64,000 nt of DNA from Gloeobacter kilaueensis JS1 (GTDB lineage: Bacteria > Cyanobacteriota > Cyanobacteriia > Gloeobacterales > Gloeobacteraceae), in contig NC_022600.1 in the NCBI RefSeq assembly GCF_000484535.1, forward strand, positions 868,001-932,000. Reading direction: 5' to 3'. How positions within the stretch are numbered: position 1 is the first letter of the stretch; each line of letters opens with the position of its first letter. Position numbers and translations under genes: made by a program. The notes below the pieces were generated by a model. It was not told the DNA's origin. It saw nothing but the letters and a program-made list of their open reading frames with translations, and made no database searches. Shown here piece by piece: positions 34,888 through 52,533 of the stretch.

Positions 34888-35252
34888 GGGGCTGCACTGG
34901 CTTCGACATTCCAGAGAAAGCCGTCCATGCAGGCCGGGAGTGAGTCCGACCCCCGTTAAATCAGGCTCAAAAACAATAAGTGCGAACAACATCGTTCCCT
35001 TTTCCCGCGCTCGCGTAGCAATCGCTGCGTAGAACGGGTCTCGCAGGACGGACCCACGACGGTCTGTGAGATACGGCTAGTGGGTGCTCCGGTAAACGTC
35101 CTTCGTCGCGTCACCGGCTAAGCTTAGACGATGAATCCCGTTATCCGGAATAAGCGATAGCCCCCGCTCCTTGGGTCAATCGAGCTAAGCCTGTGAACGA
35201 ATGGTAGGTGAATAACTGCGGATGGACAGGGGTTCGATTCCCCTCAGCTCCA
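34888..35252 (+). ncRNA. ssrA: tmRNA (transfer-messenger RNA)
   Basis: A one-piece tmRNA of 365 nt that rescues stalled ribosomes. The 5' GGGGCTG (34888-34894) pairs with CAGCTCC (35245-35251), and a T-arm with GGTTCGATTC lies just before the 3' end; CCA is not encoded. The tag frame begins at GCG 34982 and ends TAG 35030-35032, encoding ANNIVPFSRARVAIAA. The NNIVPF core is the cyanobacterial type. The tRNA-like 3' half is a common phage attachment target, and an integrase gene follows. Confidence 0.95.
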
Positions 35253-35258
35253 CTTCTT
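35231..35258 (+). other. putative attL (prophage attachment site in ssrA 3' end)
   Basis: The last about 20 bases of ssrA (GGTTCGATTCCCCTCAGCTCCA) followed by CTTCTT form the probable left attachment site, because a tyrosine integrase starts 147 bases downstream and everything after it is phage-like. The exact core cannot be delimited without the right end, which is outside the window. Confidence 0.55.
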
Positions 35259-35301
35259 AAAAACCGCTCAGCAAGCCATAGACAGCTTTTGAGCGGTTTT
35301 T
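35259..35301 (+). terminator. intrinsic terminator after ssrA
   Basis: AAAAACCGCTCA (35259-35270) pairs with TGAGCGGTTTTT (35290-35301) over a 19-base loop, giving a GC core followed by a T-run. It ends the tmRNA transcript, and since it lies past the presumed att core it is phage-supplied DNA. Confidence 0.75.
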
Positions 35302-35398: not shown

Positions 35399-36502
35399 AT
35401 GGATGACCTCATCAGGGCGGCTAACGGACGCCTGAAAGCGGCAAGGGCGGGCGTCACGATCGAGCAGCGCGGCAACCGGCTATCTTTGCGGGCCACGCTG
35501 CCAGCGCCGCCGGGTGAGCCAGTGGACTACAGGCAGCGCCGCATACCGTTAGGCATCCTGGCAAGCCTCGACGGCTGCCGTCACGCTGAGCGACTGGCGA
35601 ATGAATTGGCGGGCCAATTGGCGACAGGCCGCTTCGACTGGACGCTGTGGCGGCCTGAAGAACCGCCAGAGGCCGCCCCAACCGTGGCCGACTGGCTTGA
35701 GCGATTCCGGCGCGACTATTTCGAGCGTCGGGGCACAGAGCCAAAAGTGTTGAGCACATGGGAAAGCGAGTACTCGCGGCCCCTCCGTCGGGCGGGCAGC
35801 CTTGATGTGCCTCTCACCGCTGCCTGGGTGCGAGCGGCGATCCTCTCCATTCCCGCGCAGGAAAAGACGAGGCAGCGCGCCGCAACTTGCCTGGGCGCGC
35901 TCAGCAAGTTTGCTGGACTGCAGTTGCCCTTTGATACCGCCGATCTTCGTGGAACCTACACCGGCCTGAAGGCCGCGCCGCGCAACTTGCCTACCGATGA
36001 AGTGATCGAGCAGGTACGCCTCACTGTGCCGGACAACGGTTGGAGGTGGGTCTATGGAATGCTCGCCGCCTTTGGGCTGCGGCCCCACGAGGTCTTTCGG
36101 ATGGTGTCGGTGGAGTCGATGGCGGACGGCGGGGCAATCCTCCAGCTCAGCGAAGATACGAAGACCGGCGCGCGCTACTGCTGGGCGCTGCATCCTCGCT
36201 GGGTAGATAAGTGGGGGCTTCTCGAAGCTAAGAGGCCGGATCTAGATCTGAGCAAGCCAAACGAGAACCTCGGCCATCAGGTGAGCCAGGCATTCGTGCG
36301 CTACCGACTGCCCTTCCCTGCCTACAATCTCCGGCACGCCTGGTGCGTTCGGGCACTCACCTACAACCTCGACACGGGGCTGGCCGCTCAGATGGCCGGG
36401 CACAGCCTTGCGGTCCACCAGCGGCAATATTGGCGGTGGATCCGGGCAGATCACCACCGCCGGGCCTACGAGCAACTGATGCTCCGGCCCAACCGACCCT
36501 GA
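35399..36502 (+). CDS. phage tyrosine integrase
   Basis: The 367-residue protein catalyses site-specific recombination. The catalytic domain shows Arg228 (AAFGLRPHE), Lys256 (EDTKTG), Arg312 within YNLRHAW, His335 (MAGHS) and the nucleophile Tyr344 (RQYWRWI). The box II His of the HxxR motif is replaced by Tyr309. An N-terminal arm-binding part precedes. ATG 35399; no clear ribosome site. It lies directly next to ssrA, the presumed target. Confidence 0.9.
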   Translation: MDDLIRAANGRLKAARAGVTIEQRGNRLSLRATLPAPPGEPVDYRQRRIPLGILASLDGCRHAERLANELAGQLATGRFDWTLWRPEEPPEAAPTVADWLERFRRDYFERRGTEPKVLSTWESEYSRPLRRAGSLDVPLTAAWVRAAILSIPAQEKTRQRAATCLGALSKFAGLQLPFDTADLRGTYTGLKAAPRNLPTDEVIEQVRLTVPDNGWRWVYGMLAAFGLRPHEVFRMVSVESMADGGAILQLSEDTKTGARYCWALHPRWVDKWGLLEAKRPDLDLSKPNENLGHQVSQAFVRYRLPFPAYNLRHAWCVRALTYNLDTGLAAQMAGHSLAVHQRQYWRWIRADHHRRAYEQLMLRPNRP

Positions 36503-39334: not shown

Positions 39335-39753
39335 TACCGCATTCAAAAGCCTCAGCAGCGGGCCGACCCGCTCTGGGGGGAGTGGAAGTTGCTTGCGGGG
39401 CGCACCCTCTACGCGCCCCTCTTTTTCCCGCCCCCAGATCTGCCGAATATCTCGAAGCCAAGGTGCTCGAACTTGAGCACGAGCTCGCCGCTGCCTACCG
39501 CCAGATTGGCGGCCTGCAGGATCATATCCGCGCCCTCGAGGCCGAGGCCGATCAGCGCAACGCTCTGATCTTCCGCCAGGCCGCGCTGCACTTTGCTGCC
39601 CAGCGCGTCATTGCCTGCTGGGAAGAGCAGGGTGGCGGCGAAGAGCAGGAGGTCCGCCTCGCTATGGCCCTCAACTGGCTCCGCGAGGCTCTGGCTGGGA
39701 GGCCCGCGCCGAGGTACCTGCCCGCTGAGTGGCTGAAGGGAGGTGCGGCGTGA
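39331..39753 (+). CDS. phage coiled-coil protein
   Basis: 140 residues. A disordered N-terminus is followed by a coiled coil (SAEYLEAKVLELEHELAAAYRQIGGLQDHIRALEAEADQR) and a Trp-containing C-terminus. No known family. Overlaps both neighbours by 4 bases. Confidence 0.55.
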   Translation: MIPHSKASAAGRPALGGVEVACGAHPLRAPLFPAPRSAEYLEAKVLELEHELAAAYRQIGGLQDHIRALEAEADQRNALIFRQAALHFAAQRVIACWEEQGGGEEQEVRLAMALNWLREALAGRPAPRYLPAEWLKGGAA

Positions 39754-40349
39754 CACCAGAAGCACTGCAAAAAATCCTCGCGGATCACCTCGAATGGATC
39801 GGGTCGCTCGGCGAGCGCGGCACCAGGGCCAACCTGTACGGGGCCAACCTGACGAGGGCCAACCTGTACGGGGCCAACCTGACGAGGGCCAACCTGGAGG
39901 GGGCCAACCTGTACGGGGCCAAGCTGACGAGGGCCAACCTGTACGGGGCCAACCTGGAGGGGGCCAACCTGACGAGGGCCAACCTGTACGGGGCCAACCT
40001 GACGAGGGCCAGCCTGGAGGGGGCCAACCTGGAGGGGGCCAAGCTGGGCAAGGAAACGAAAATCTCACCCGAGACACGTCTGCCCACCGGCGAACTCTGG
40101 AGCGAGTACCTGGCCGAAGTTGTGCCCGCGCTTTGCACCGCCGGGGGCCGGAAACTTGAGGAAGTGGCGGGCCATTGGGACTGCCACACCTGGGAGAACT
40201 GCCCGATGGCTGCCGCGTTCGGCGTGCAAGGAATTGAAGAAATTCCGCTTCTGTTTCGCCCGCGCGCTCAGCAGTTCGTGCCACTGTTCGACGCCGGGCT
40301 AATTCCGTGCCCAGTTGCCAGGTCCGAGGCGGCGGAGGTGCAGCCGTGA
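39750..40349 (+). CDS. pentapeptide-repeat protein
   Basis: GTG 39750 overlaps the upstream stop. The 199-residue product holds fifteen consecutive A(N/K/S)LXX pentapeptides (residues about 27-101), which fold as a square beta-helix, then an unrelated 98-residue C-terminal domain with several Cys/His (DCHTWENC, CPVARS). Pentapeptide proteins can mimic DNA and inhibit gyrase, but short repeats in phages are often uncharacterised. An upstream ATG (39729) is less likely. Confidence 0.8.
   Translation: MTPEALQKILADHLEWIGSLGERGTRANLYGANLTRANLYGANLTRANLEGANLYGAKLTRANLYGANLEGANLTRANLYGANLTRASLEGANLEGAKLGKETKISPETRLPTGELWSEYLAEVVPALCTAGGRKLEEVAGHWDCHTWENCPMAAAFGVQGIEEIPLLFRPRAQQFVPLFDAGLIPCPVARSEAAEVQP
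39828..40052 (+). repeat. 15-bp tandem repeat encoding pentapeptides
   Basis: Fifteen units of GCCAACCTGnnnggg or the ACGAGG variant run without a break. The units are nearly identical at the DNA level, with only GCC-AAG and GCC-AGC variants, which points to recent expansion and a capacity for repeat-number change. Confidence 0.85.
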
Positions 40350-49189: not shown

Positions 49190-49397
49190 TATTGCCCACC
49201 AGGTGGCCGCCATCGATGTCGAGGCCGCCCGTGCTGGGTTCAGCAGATACGAGCTGCGCCTGCTCGTCTGGGGCCGCTACAACGCTGTCCGCAGGGCTGA
49301 ACTCACTCCCGACGAGTTGGTGGACTTGCTTGAACACCTGCAACAGTTGCCCACACGATTACCTGCAAACAAACTTTTAACGGGAGCAGCAAGATGA
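49182..49397 (+). CDS. phage hypothetical protein
   Basis: 71 residues, helical (AGFSRYELRLLVWGRYNAVRRAELTPDELVDLLEHLQQL). Overlaps neighbours by 8 and 4 bases. Unknown. Confidence 0.45.
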   Translation: MSDIAHQVAAIDVEAARAGFSRYELRLLVWGRYNAVRRAELTPDELVDLLEHLQQLPTRLPANKLLTGAAR

Positions 49398-49870
49398 AAA
49401 CGAAACAAGAAGCCAAGGAAGCTCTGATGCTTGCTGGCTGGAGCGAAGAAGAGATCGAATCGGTTGGCATTGTCTTGCCGCCGCCATCACCAACTATCAA
49501 TCCTGAAGATTTGCAAACCTGCCCAGACAGGATGCAGAGCTTTGGCCCACAGCGCCGCGAAGAGAACCTGGATCACTGGGCAAAACGAGGAGCCGATCGC
49601 GTTTGTTCTTACTGCGGCAGCATGCACCCGGATGAGTTCGTCGCCTTTTTGCGCCGCGCCGCAGATCCGGCTCAACCCGATCGGCTCGGATTGACGGACA
49701 AGAATTACAAGCTCTACGTCCACAGGCCCGGTGTCAGCAACGCCGGTCAGGGCGCAATCAAGTTCTATAAATGGCACCTTGCTCCAGAAGGCCAAGAGCT
49801 GGAGGAGCTGGAGGCTTTATTCAAGGCAGCCGTGCAGCAATCGCGTATTAAATACGGGGGCATCGCATGA
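49394..49870 (+). CDS. conserved-type phage protein with CSYCGSMHP motif
   Basis: 158 residues, ATGA-coupled. HWAKRGADRVCSYCGSMHPDEFVAFL contains a zinc-knuckle-like CxxC, followed by DKNYKLYVHRPGV...GAIKFYKWHL. I have seen this arrangement in hypothetical proteins of other tailed phages. Function unknown; last sure gene of the early operon. Confidence 0.6.
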   Translation: MKTKQEAKEALMLAGWSEEEIESVGIVLPPPSPTINPEDLQTCPDRMQSFGPQRREENLDHWAKRGADRVCSYCGSMHPDEFVAFLRRAADPAQPDRLGLTDKNYKLYVHRPGVSNAGQGAIKFYKWHLAPEGQELEELEALFKAAVQQSRIKYGGIA

Positions 49871-50040
49871 GCACTGGAGAGATCGACTTCAAGCGGCTGC
49901 GGCCAAAGGTGAGCAAAATGGCTGAAACCCAGTCAGGAAGCGGGTTTCAGCTTTTTGGGCGGGTCGGCGCGGGTCCTTCCGGGGCCAAAAGACAGTGCGG
50001 GTATGGGCTGCCCAACTTTTCGCTAGTTACAGCCTTTTAA
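49867..50040 (+). CDS. possible last gene of the early operon
   Basis: ATG 49867 overlaps the preceding stop as ATGA and opens 57 residues (MSTGEIDFKRLRPKVSKMAE...). The strong terminator at 49921-49956 lies inside the frame, so transcripts would usually be cut before the stop; the frame may be fortuitous or read only by antiterminated RNA. Confidence 0.3.
   Translation: MSTGEIDFKRLRPKVSKMAETQSGSGFQLFGRVGAGPSGAKRQCGYGLPNFSLVTAF
49921..49956 (+). terminator. strong intrinsic terminator of the early operon
   Basis: GCTGAAACCC (49921-49930) and GGGTTTCAGC (49942-49951) form a perfect 10-bp stem over an 11-base loop, followed directly by TTTTT. It separates the early operon from the late operon. 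Confidence 0.9.
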
Positions 50041-50073
50041 GACCCGACATGCCGCTGCAACGTTCGTAAAGAC

Positions 50074-50110
50074 TAGATAAGGGTAATTACTGTTAGATAA
50101 AGGGCAATTA
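50074..50110 (+). promoter_or_regulatory. two direct repeats upstream of the terminase genes
   Basis: TAGATAAGGGTAATTA (50074-50089) recurs as TAGATAAAGGGCAATTA (50094-50110), 20 bases apart, in an AT-rich island between the early terminator and the small terminase gene. The spacing of about two helical turns fits a dimeric or repeated protein-binding site: a cosB-like terminase site or a late-promoter activator site. Confidence 0.5.
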
Positions 50111-50132
50111 AGTAAGTAAGGCAGGTTGCAAG

Positions 50133-50639
50133 GTGTTGAGCGATAGAGTACGTGCAATTGAGCTAGGCGAATATCTTGGACCAATCAGCGAAAGAACGGT
50201 TCGCGATTGGGCTAGTCGGGGCATTATTCCAAGAGCCAGCGGTGGGCGCTACAGCATAAAAGCCTGCACATGCTCGGCAATTGCCCATTTTCAGGAAGAG
50301 GCAAAGCGGGCGTCGAGCGGCCTCAGTGACGACAACGAGGACATGCAGGCTGCCCTCCTGGCTGCAAAGCTGCGGATAGCTGAAGCCACTGCGGAGCAAG
50401 AAGAGGCTGCTGTAGCCGCTGCTCGCGGTCGGCTGCTGCCTGCAGGCGAGGTGATTGCCGAGGGAGCAAAGATGGTTGCAGCGTTTCGCGCCCGTTTGCT
50501 GAGCCTGCCCACCACTGCAGCGCCCCAGGTGGTCGAGTTGTCGGCCCCTGAAGCAGAAGCCCTGCTACGTTCGCTCGTCTACGAAGCGCTGGCCGAACTG
50601 GCGGCCTATGATCCGGGCGATGCCGACAGCAATTCGTGA
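50133..50639 (+). CDS. terminase small subunit (Nu1/gp1-like)
   Basis: GTG 50133; 168 residues. The N-terminal winged helix-turn-helix (LGEYLGPISERTVRDWASRGIIPRASGGRYSI) is that of lambda Nu1-type DNA-recognition subunits, followed by a helical part (AAKLRIAEATAEQEEAAVAAARGRLLPAGEVIAEG) with the usual assembly motif. It recognises the packaging site and pairs with the next gene product. Overlap of 32 bases with it. Confidence 0.85.
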   Translation: MLSDRVRAIELGEYLGPISERTVRDWASRGIIPRASGGRYSIKACTCSAIAHFQEEAKRASSGLSDDNEDMQAALLAAKLRIAEATAEQEEAAVAAARGRLLPAGEVIAEGAKMVAAFRARLLSLPTTAAPQVVELSAPEAEALLRSLVYEALAELAAYDPGDADSNS

Positions 50640-52533
50640 AGCGATAAGGCAAATCGCCGCCGCCGCCGCACCGCCGCCGGATCTGAAGATTTCCGAATGG
50701 GCAGATACCTACCGGGTTATCCCAGAAGGAGCTGCGATGCCGGGCCGGTGGCGAACCAGCCGCACGCCCTACCTGCGCGAGCCGATGGACGCGCTCACGG
50801 ATCCGCTTGTCGAAGAGCTGGTCATTATGGCGGGCAGTCAGGTAGGCAAGACGGAACTCACCCTGAACGTGCTGGGCTACTTCATTCACCAGGATCCGAG
50901 CCCCATTCTCTACATGGAGCCCACGGTAGAAATGGCGGAGAACTTTTCTAAAACTCGGCTGGCTCCAACCATTCGCGACACCGCCGTATTGGCATCGCGC
51001 ATTGCGGATCCGAAAAGTCGCGACTCTGGTAACACTACGCTTCTCAAGAACTTTGCCGGGGGCTATTTGGCTTTGATTGGCTCCAACAGCCCCGCCCAGG
51101 CGGCAAGCCGACCGATACGAATACTTCTCGCCGACGAGGTGGATCGCTTCAGCGACTCGGCAGGCACCGAAGGCGATCCGGTGGATCTGGGCATCCAGCG
51201 GCAAGACACTTTCTTCAACCGCAAGCGTGGGCTCATCAGCACGCCTACTGTGCGCGATGTGAGCCGCATCGAAGCCGCCTTTCTGGCGAGCGACCAGCGG
51301 CGCTACTTTTGCCCGTGCCCAGTCTGCGGCGAATTTCAGCTGCTCCAGTTTCAATACCTGCGGTGGGATGCCGGGCGGCCCGAGAGTGCCTACTACCTGT
51401 GCGAGCATTGCGGGGCGAAGCTTTCTACCGCTCAGAAAAACCAGATGGTACGTGCTGGCCAGTGGCGAGCGACGGCTACACCGAAACCCGGCTCCGAGCG
51501 CTCGCGAGGCTATCACCTCTGGGCCATCTACAGCCCCTGGATCTCGCTGCAGTTGATTGTCGAGAAATTTCTCAAGGCAAAAGACGATCCTGAGCGATTG
51601 AAAGTCTTCACCAACACTGTGCTGGCGGAAACCTTCGACACCGCCGGGGGGCAGAAGATTGACTATCAAAAGCTGGCCGATCGATCGAACTACGGGCCTA
51701 GGGGCAGCAATGGTCAGCCCGCTCGTGAGTTCGTCTACGGGCTCGAAGGGGGCAAAGCCCCTGCCGCCGGGGTGCTGTTTTTGAGCGGCGGCGTCGATGT
51801 GCAAGACGATCGCCTGGAGGTGATCTTGAGAGGCTGGGGCCGGGGTGAACAATCCTGGCTTTGTTGGTACCAGCAGATCTGGGGCGATCCGCGCATGGTC
51901 TCGACCTGGGAGGCGCTTGACGAGGTGGTAGGTAGCACCTGGCGGCACCCTCACGGCGTCGATCTTCGCGTCGAAGCGGTCGGGGTGGATAGTGGCCATC
52001 TCACGCAGTACGTCTACGCCTACGTGCGTGGTGCGGCCCATCGAGGAGTGTTTGCGGTGAAAGGCATGGGCACGCCCACCGATCGCCCGATCCTGGGCAC
52101 ACCCACCTGGCAGGACATCGATCACGAAGGCAGGAAGATTAAAAACGGTGTGCAGCTCTGGTCTGTGGGCACCCACCAGGCCAACAGTCTCATCTATTCC
52201 CGGCTGGCGCTGCCGTACCCCGGCGACGGCTACTATCATTTCCCGGCGGGCCTTGAAGAGCCATTTTGGGAAGGGCTGTGTTCTGAAAAATTGATTACTG
52301 AGTATCGGGCCGGAGTAGCAACCCAGCGCTACGTGCCCATCGCCGGAAGAAAGCGCAACGAGCCCTTGGACTGCGAGCGCTACGCCCTCGCCGCTGCACT
52401 GAAGCTGGGCCTCGCCCGCGCTCCCTGGGACAAGCTCGAAGAACGGGTGAAGCCGAAAGAGCAAAAACCCACCACCGCCCGCGCAACTGCTGCAACTGGC
52501 CGCCAGTCCGGCAACTGGCTTACGGATTACTGA
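50608..52533 (+). CDS. terminase large subunit (GpA family)
   Basis: The 641-residue packaging motor and nuclease. ATPase motifs: Walker A GSQVGKT (76-82) and Walker B ILLADEVD (172-179). A Cys4 knuckle (CPCPVCG ... CEHCG) precedes the nuclease domain, which has GGVDVQDDRLEV and GVDSG. Length and order match lambda GpA (641 residues). ATG 50608 or 50620. Confidence 0.95.
   Translation: MIRAMPTAIREAIRQIAAAAAPPPDLKISEWADTYRVIPEGAAMPGRWRTSRTPYLREPMDALTDPLVEELVIMAGSQVGKTELTLNVLGYFIHQDPSPILYMEPTVEMAENFSKTRLAPTIRDTAVLASRIADPKSRDSGNTTLLKNFAGGYLALIGSNSPAQAASRPIRILLADEVDRFSDSAGTEGDPVDLGIQRQDTFFNRKRGLISTPTVRDVSRIEAAFLASDQRRYFCPCPVCGEFQLLQFQYLRWDAGRPESAYYLCEHCGAKLSTAQKNQMVRAGQWRATATPKPGSERSRGYHLWAIYSPWISLQLIVEKFLKAKDDPERLKVFTNTVLAETFDTAGGQKIDYQKLADRSNYGPRGSNGQPAREFVYGLEGGKAPAAGVLFLSGGVDVQDDRLEVILRGWGRGEQSWLCWYQQIWGDPRMVSTWEALDEVVGSTWRHPHGVDLRVEAVGVDSGHLTQYVYAYVRGAAHRGVFAVKGMGTPTDRPILGTPTWQDIDHEGRKIKNGVQLWSVGTHQANSLIYSRLALPYPGDGYYHFPAGLEEPFWEGLCSEKLITEYRAGVATQRYVPIAGRKRNEPLDCERYALAAALKLGLARAPWDKLEERVKPKEQKPTTARATAATGRQSGNWLTDY

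Follow-up and report, generated by a model that had tools for sequence, protein, structure and literature searches.

A probable lambda-type cos site with candidate terminase-binding direct repeats in a prophage of Gloeobacter kilaueensis

The prophage and its terminase genes

The window analysed here is a 64-kb stretch of the Gloeobacter kilaueensis JS1 genome (NC_022600.1, positions 868,001 to 932,000), and all coordinates below are counted from its first base. It contains most of a prophage integrated in the tmRNA gene. A 31 bp attL core at the tmRNA 3′ end recurs as attR past the end of the window, at coordinate 77597 of the same numbering; these att repeats bound an element of about 42,365 bp. 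The same prophage is present in IMG/VR as UViG 2558309063_000001 (L025 and L135 in our locus set). The features on which the description rests are as follows.

34888-35253, tmRNA gene
35232-35262, + strand, attL core
35399-36502, integrase gene
49867-50040, + strand, 57-codon ORF with an ATGA overlap with the preceding gene, extending over the left-hand two thirds of the gap before terS
49916-49957, + strand, terminator-like hairpin closing the preceding gene cluster (inverted repeat GGCTGAAACCC / GGGTTTCAGC followed by TTTTT)
49971-49977, + strand, cosQ-like word GGGTCCT, 28 or 29 nt upstream of the predicted left end (30 nt in lambda)
49999-50011, + strand, predicted 12-nt cosN cohesive end, uncertain by 1 nt, placed by register with lambda, Lily and BZS1
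50017-50026, + strand, I2-like element TTTTCGCTAG between cosN and cosB, at the lambda distance from the left end
50046-50065, + strand, the R3 place, position of the first TerS-site repeat in relatives; no repeat was found here
50074-50089, + strand, direct repeat copy 1, TAGATAAGGGTAATTA, found by motif search, candidate TerS site of cosB
50094-50110, + strand, direct repeat copy 2, TAGATAAAGGGCAATTA, found by motif search, candidate TerS site of cosB
50133-50639, + strand, terS, lambda Nu1-like (phrog_57, E-value 4.9e-24), GTG start
50279-50292, − strand, inverted near-copy GAAAATGGGCAATT inside terS, with two mismatches in 14 positions against GATAAAGGGCAATT, candidate distal site
50608-52533, + strand, terL, lambda gpA-type large terminase (PF05876, E-value 5.3e-87; PF20454, E-value 1.6e-81)

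The gap before terS lies between a presumably early gene cluster and the terS, terL, portal and capsid genes. An earlier note on this DNA had described it as the only substantial non-coding gap; the gap is indeed there, although 'non-coding' is a loose description, since the 57-codon ORF crosses two thirds of it. We note that this ORF covers the hairpin, cosQ and cosN, so that the cos region would be partly coding if it is translated. The hairpin folds as RNA at −22.1 kcal/mol (z −3.37, with 3 of 200 shuffles as good) and is absent from the output of a consensus scan that allowed loops of 3-8.

The gene downstream of the gap had been called Nu1-like, in keeping with the phrog_57 match of TerS; the TerL that follows is of the GpA type, with both the ATPase and the nuclease domains of GpA. 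The HTH_17 match of TerS falls below the cut-off. Its segment SERTVRDWASRG aligns with lambda SIRTIQNWQEQG across the recognition helix, the limits of which in lambda are given in an excerpt of PMC9026076. The TerS residues at positions 20 and 24, which determine specificity in lambda and 21 (PMC4669245), differ from those of lambda, and R sequences unlike lambda's are therefore to be expected. An AlphaFold (AF2) model of TerS (pLDDT 90, pTM 0.47) predicts a winged-helix start followed by long helices. When this model was used with Foldseek no match with an E-value of 0.001 or below was found, the best being a MerR-like regulator (E-value 0.14). In a second structural comparison the top match of the model was 7lw0 (Z 7.6, rmsd 1.3, 50 residues), which from its title we take to concern motors in viral DNA packaging, and the lambda gpNu1 domain 1j9i gave a Z of 5.6 (rmsd 4.7, 56 residues); these predicted likenesses, all below Z 8, are only suggestive. 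The TerS alignment (A1) consists of the window TerS and 25 TerS proteins of other loci. Close relatives are scarce, in that TerS is present in 1 of 59 genomes, its own, no close relative was found in the viral contigs except the prophage itself, and the phage collection yielded five weak matches, all from Roseobacter.

A cosQ-cosN-I2 signature in the gap

The word GGGTCCT occurs once in the window, on either strand, and is identical to a word in the lambda record that we take to be lambda cosQ; the length (7 bp) and role of cosQ are given in papers. Farther to the right, the lambda sequence TTTTCGCTA, which in lambda lies near terS, is present at 50017-50025. An alignment of the two phages on TTTTCGCTA needs no gap and sets GGGTATGGGCTG-CCCAAC-TTTTCGCTAGTTA of the window against GGGCGGCGACCT-CGCGGG-TTTTCGCTATTTA of the lambda record. 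The cohesive end predicted from these registers is either GGGTATGGGCTG (49999-50010), as in the lambda and Lily register, or GGTATGGGCTGC (50000-50011), as in the BZS1 register and with a CG left flank; this one-base doubt arises because the CTAG of BZS1 is one base nearer. Of the two, a left end at 50000 is favoured, since it agrees with the register of BZS1, gives CG as the left flank and puts cosQ at a distance of 29. With that end the nick is flanked by CG on the left and CC on the right, where lambda has CG on the right; Lily and several relatives also have CC there. A cosN nearer to the hairpin, at about 49957, was dropped in favour of 49999/50000, which agrees with both the relatives and the lambda register.

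A 45-column profile built from 30 other loci, combined with cosQ, scores 24.5 at this place, the best on both strands of the window, the second-best score being 16.9 on the opposite strand. The maximum in 60 simulated 64-kb sequences, searched on both strands and generated by first-order Markov simulation rather than by exact shuffling, was 23.2. Without the I2 core columns the site scores 13.6, still the top of the + strand, which is not significant alone (the simulated maxima have a mean of 15.3). An earlier profile missed the ends of lambda and Lily because the records of these phages begin with them, leaving too little sequence to fill the profile.

The layout resembles that of lambda cos (cosQ-cosN-I2-cosB, with cosB arranged as R3-I1-R2-R1) in the order of its elements, in GGGTCCT, in a predicted 12-nt end starting with GG, in the distance of TTTTCGCTA and in having GpA/Nu1 terminase genes just downstream, whereas the cohesive-end sequence and the R sequences are different. 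Paenibacillus phage Lily, which an excerpt of PMC6070908 describes as having 12-nt 5′ cohesive ends, has a 12-nt 5′ end like the one predicted here, in the same register (GCTAGTTA 24 nt from the end), and a GpA-type terminase, but has the cosQ-like word AGGTACT and different cosB sequences; its record begins GGTGCGCGTGAG, with GCTAGTTA at the distance seen in the window. The ends of Serratia phage BZS1, GCATTGCGCGCC, are 12-nt 5′ cohesive ends according to an excerpt of PMC7556043, where PhageTerm was used to determine them and the prophage junction was sequenced for comparison. The earlier note had proposed a cos site beside the Nu1-like gene, and the conserved cosQ-cosN-I2 signature, which it did not name, supports this well. 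From these sequence comparisons the gap before terS is very probably the lambda-type cos of the prophage, and cleavage at the predicted cosN would follow by homology with these phages.

Conservation among GpA-type terminase loci

The comparison drew on 101 TerL loci (21 from genomes and 80 viral). Thirty-one cos sites were aligned, a subset limited to loci that could be placed by the profile or by the core word, with near-identical loci omitted by eye and the window's own phage included as L025; GGGTCC stands 28-33 nt upstream of cosN in 25 of these 31 (own phage included) and in none at 11 control distances. In the remaining six the word is altered (to AGGTACT in three loci, to GGGACC or to GGTTCC) or stands at a distance of 24. 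CTAG is found 47-57 nt downstream of cosQ at 26 of 35 non-redundant sites, as against 0-2 of 35 in seven control windows of equal width, one of the 35 entries (the second word in L063) being a non-independent site. In a wider count with loose words and without control distances, a cosQ-like word lies in the right zone of 56 of the 85 loci that have at least 700 bp upstream of TerL and is absent from 29, the remaining 16 of the 101 loci being too short. No cosQ-like word was found in AcaML1, the record start of the cyanophage S-CBS3, which has a GpA TerL, gave no cos match, and the record starts of nd4 and Lagaffe gave no clear alignment.

The I2 core CTAG thus keeps a constant distance from cosQ even among distant phages with a GpA terminase. 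The function of the lambda I2 segment is described as unknown in an excerpt of PMC4856287; since CTAG is kept at this distance, the role of I2 may be approachable by comparison.

Direct repeats upstream of terS

Between the I2-like element and terS are the two direct repeats, which were found on the + strand at the place where the earlier note had put them, with starts 20 bp apart; the 23 bases that it gave between them and the Nu1-like gene are 22 when counted from copy 2 to the GTG at 50133. The motif has no further match in the window (0 expected by chance), and in the whole genome of 4,724,791 bp its only matches are these two, both forward, with none on the reverse strand and none for a reversed-pattern control. 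Allowing up to three mismatches gave no further copy in the window, and a 15-mer of the repeat with up to two mismatches gave none elsewhere in the prophage, its six other genome matches all lying outside it. This is as expected for a single packaging site, and the idea that the repeats are members of a prophage-wide operator set was rejected for lack of other copies within the prophage. Among viral contigs the degenerate motif has 60 matches, which look like chance because all are single except in the prophage's own record (L135).

The best self-alignment score in 50026-50132 is 13. Dinucleotide shuffles of this 107-bp interval reached it in 2 of 300 cases, and shuffles of the whole gap before terS (262 bp) in 5 of 60; the repeat pair is thus moderately, not extremely, beyond chance. 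Self-matching of the interval has its maximum at offset 20 (37 of 87). The repeat region is AT-rich, with 33 % G+C at 50060-50120 against 61 % for the whole window, and its predicted RNA structure is not better than that of shuffles (z +1.21). We note that a degenerate third copy may be present at 50113-50129, 19 bp after copy 2.

Counted from the left end, the repeats occupy bp 75-90 and 95-111, and terS starts at bp 134. They begin about 27 bp past the first TerS site (bp 48-50) of lambda, N15 and the GGTAAC phages described below. In lambda, R3 lies at about bp 48-65 and the spacing of this first site is critical (both from an excerpt of PMC9026076), with the inverted R2 at about 110, R1 at 155 and the terS start at 191. 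No second copy of the R3-place sequence of the window was found, and 121 of 200 (direct) and 182 of 200 (inverted) shuffles were as good, so that a lambda-type cosB with R3 at bp 48-65 is not seen in the window. This absence makes a cosB of the lambda or N15 type less likely and leaves cosQ and cosN untouched. The inverted near-copy of repeat 2 lies at +261, within the zone of the distal clusters of relatives, and carries little weight, as 6 of 200 shuffles did equally well in one test and 41 of 500 in another.

The candidate cosB sites of the prophage thus lie further outward than those of lambda, and where lambda has R3 and an inverted R2 around an IHF site the prophage has two direct repeats 20 bp apart. 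The host has three HU/IHF-family genes, all under the IHF and HU equivalog cut-offs. A second comparison is offered by the simple cos of N15, in which R3 is paired with an inverted copy, rR2, in the TerS gene (PMC4669245): here too terS contains an inverted near-copy, some 185 bp away from the upstream site, but N15 has one upstream site, at bp 48-59, where the prophage has two, at bp 75-111, and an inverted copy that is statistically weak. BZS1 and related proteobacterial prophages share short direct repeats between cosN and terS and, in the relatives, the cosQ-cosN-CTAG order, but their unit is GGTAAC, spaced by 7-12 bp, its first copy falls at the R3 place, and terS contains a second cluster.

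At 12 of the 33 sites tested a 6-mer recurs in the cosB interval to a count that no more than 1 of 100 shuffles attains. The repeated 6-mer is mostly GGTAAC, which starts 28-29 nt after the I2 core and recurs at about +200 to +290 inside terS; in most of the proteobacterial relatives the distal copies occur in both orientations. The window (63 of 100 shuffles as good, not significant) and lambda (25 of 100) both fail this test, which is therefore blind to longer and less exact sites.

Several details of these relatives may be mentioned. L010, L013, L069, L070, L080 and L102 have seven copies of GGTAAC/GTTACC in 420 bp, and BZS1 (L170) has ten; in all of these loci, BZS1 included, the copies begin some 28 nt past the I2 core and extend to about 290 nt, with at most four in the remainder of the locus. 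The GGTAAC sites in terS seem to overlap the GN- and VT-rich linker of TerS, as if the DNA sites dictated the linker. L020, L024 and L060 form a separate clade with the unit GCGGACA/TGTCCGC at +27/28 and again at about +187 to +250, partly inverted between the clusters, and of these three only L020 exceeds its shuffles.

A packaging model and its alternatives

The earlier note had offered the repeats as a candidate packaging site. They do lie within the cosB interval; they are not the cut site, because the cosQ-cosN-I2 signature stands some 50-100 bp upstream of them. Its analogy with the terminase-binding repeats that lie beside Nu1 in lambda is apt in that the repeats occupy the cosB interval like the lambda R sequences, although they are predicted TerS sites only and the spacing of R3 is not reproduced. 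TerS binding to them is suggested by their place, by their repetition and by analogy, and the shifted spacing weakens the case; on balance we lean slightly towards the repeats being the TerS sites of cosB. The reading as a whole, a lambda-type cos with the repeats as TerS sites in cosB, we regard as probable. From left to right it would comprise cosQ (49971), the cosN cut at about 49999/50000 and its partner 12 nt further right, the I2-like element (50017) and a cosB (about 50040-50300) with the repeats. After induction the phage DNA would form a concatemer, and the Nu1-like TerS would bind cosB, probably at both direct repeats, whose spacing of roughly two helical turns puts them on the same face of the DNA, and perhaps assisted by the inverted copy inside terS. 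Bound TerS would then anchor the GpA-type TerL, which would nick cosN and thread the DNA into the head with the terS side first, and packaging would stop at the next cos, recognised via cosQ and cosN.

An unlikely alternative accepts the cos and takes the repeats for operators or promoter elements of late terS transcription, with a regulator on two same-face sites. It fits their position 22-59 bp upstream of the start codon, their AT-richness, the weak resemblance of TAGATAA to a −10 element and the hairpin just upstream, which would demand a new promoter or antitermination. Against it, no sigma-70-like promoter was found in 49300-50700, even a relaxed scan reached no more than 8 of 12, no copies of the repeat occur at phage promoters or elsewhere in the prophage, and the 23-58 bp that separate the I2 core from terS in many relatives leave scant room for a promoter; the late-control site that the earlier note had also suggested thus finds no support. 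Rather unlikely, too, is that the repeats are chance in an AT-rich leader and that the working TerS site is at the R3 place (about 50046-50065), where the first site of relatives starts. The 5 of 60 whole-gap shuffles with an equal repeat speak for chance, and among the viral contigs and 59 genomes searched there is no relative close enough to show conservation of the repeats; yet only 2 of 300 shuffles did as well in the interval between cosN and terS, and the R3-place sequence is single-copy, unlike that of the relatives in which the signal is clear, where it is repeated.

Headful packaging with the repeats as a pac site, the other packaging reading in the earlier note, is very improbable. 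Several TerS sites near the first cut are also known from pac phages such as SPP1 (excerpt of PMC4669245), but the GpA/Nu1-type terminase and the full cosQ-cosN-I2 signature argue for cos, and both relatives with published ends, Lily and BZS1, are cos phages with 12-nt 5′ cohesive ends in the excerpts cited above.

If the preferred reading of a lambda-type cos is taken together with the relatives, it may be, though we put this forward tentatively, that cosQ-cosN-I2 accompanies GpA-type terminases generally, in Proteobacteria, in Firmicutes and in a basal cyanobacterium alike, and that cosB is free to be rebuilt, with TerS repeats, upstream of terS and within it, that differ from lineage to lineage. 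The layout peculiar to the Gloeobacter prophage would then be a pair of direct sites in phase, 20 bp apart and displaced outward, together with the inverted terS copy.

A lambda-type cos is a known kind of site, and its presence in a Gloeobacter prophage is the new detail. No description of a cyanobacterial cos was found in literature searches on cos sites and cyanophage terminases, although one could still be in print; the G. kilaueensis genome paper mentions phage-related genes, and 'prophage' is absent from its main text as excerpted (PMC3806779). Placing the left end at 49999 or 50000 predicts, at the level of single bases, where the packaging ends of this prophage should lie, and the prediction can be tested. 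Near the early end of the prophage, 39729-40349 holds a pentapeptide-repeat-like ORF (GANLYGANLTRANL...) together with a longer antisense ORF.
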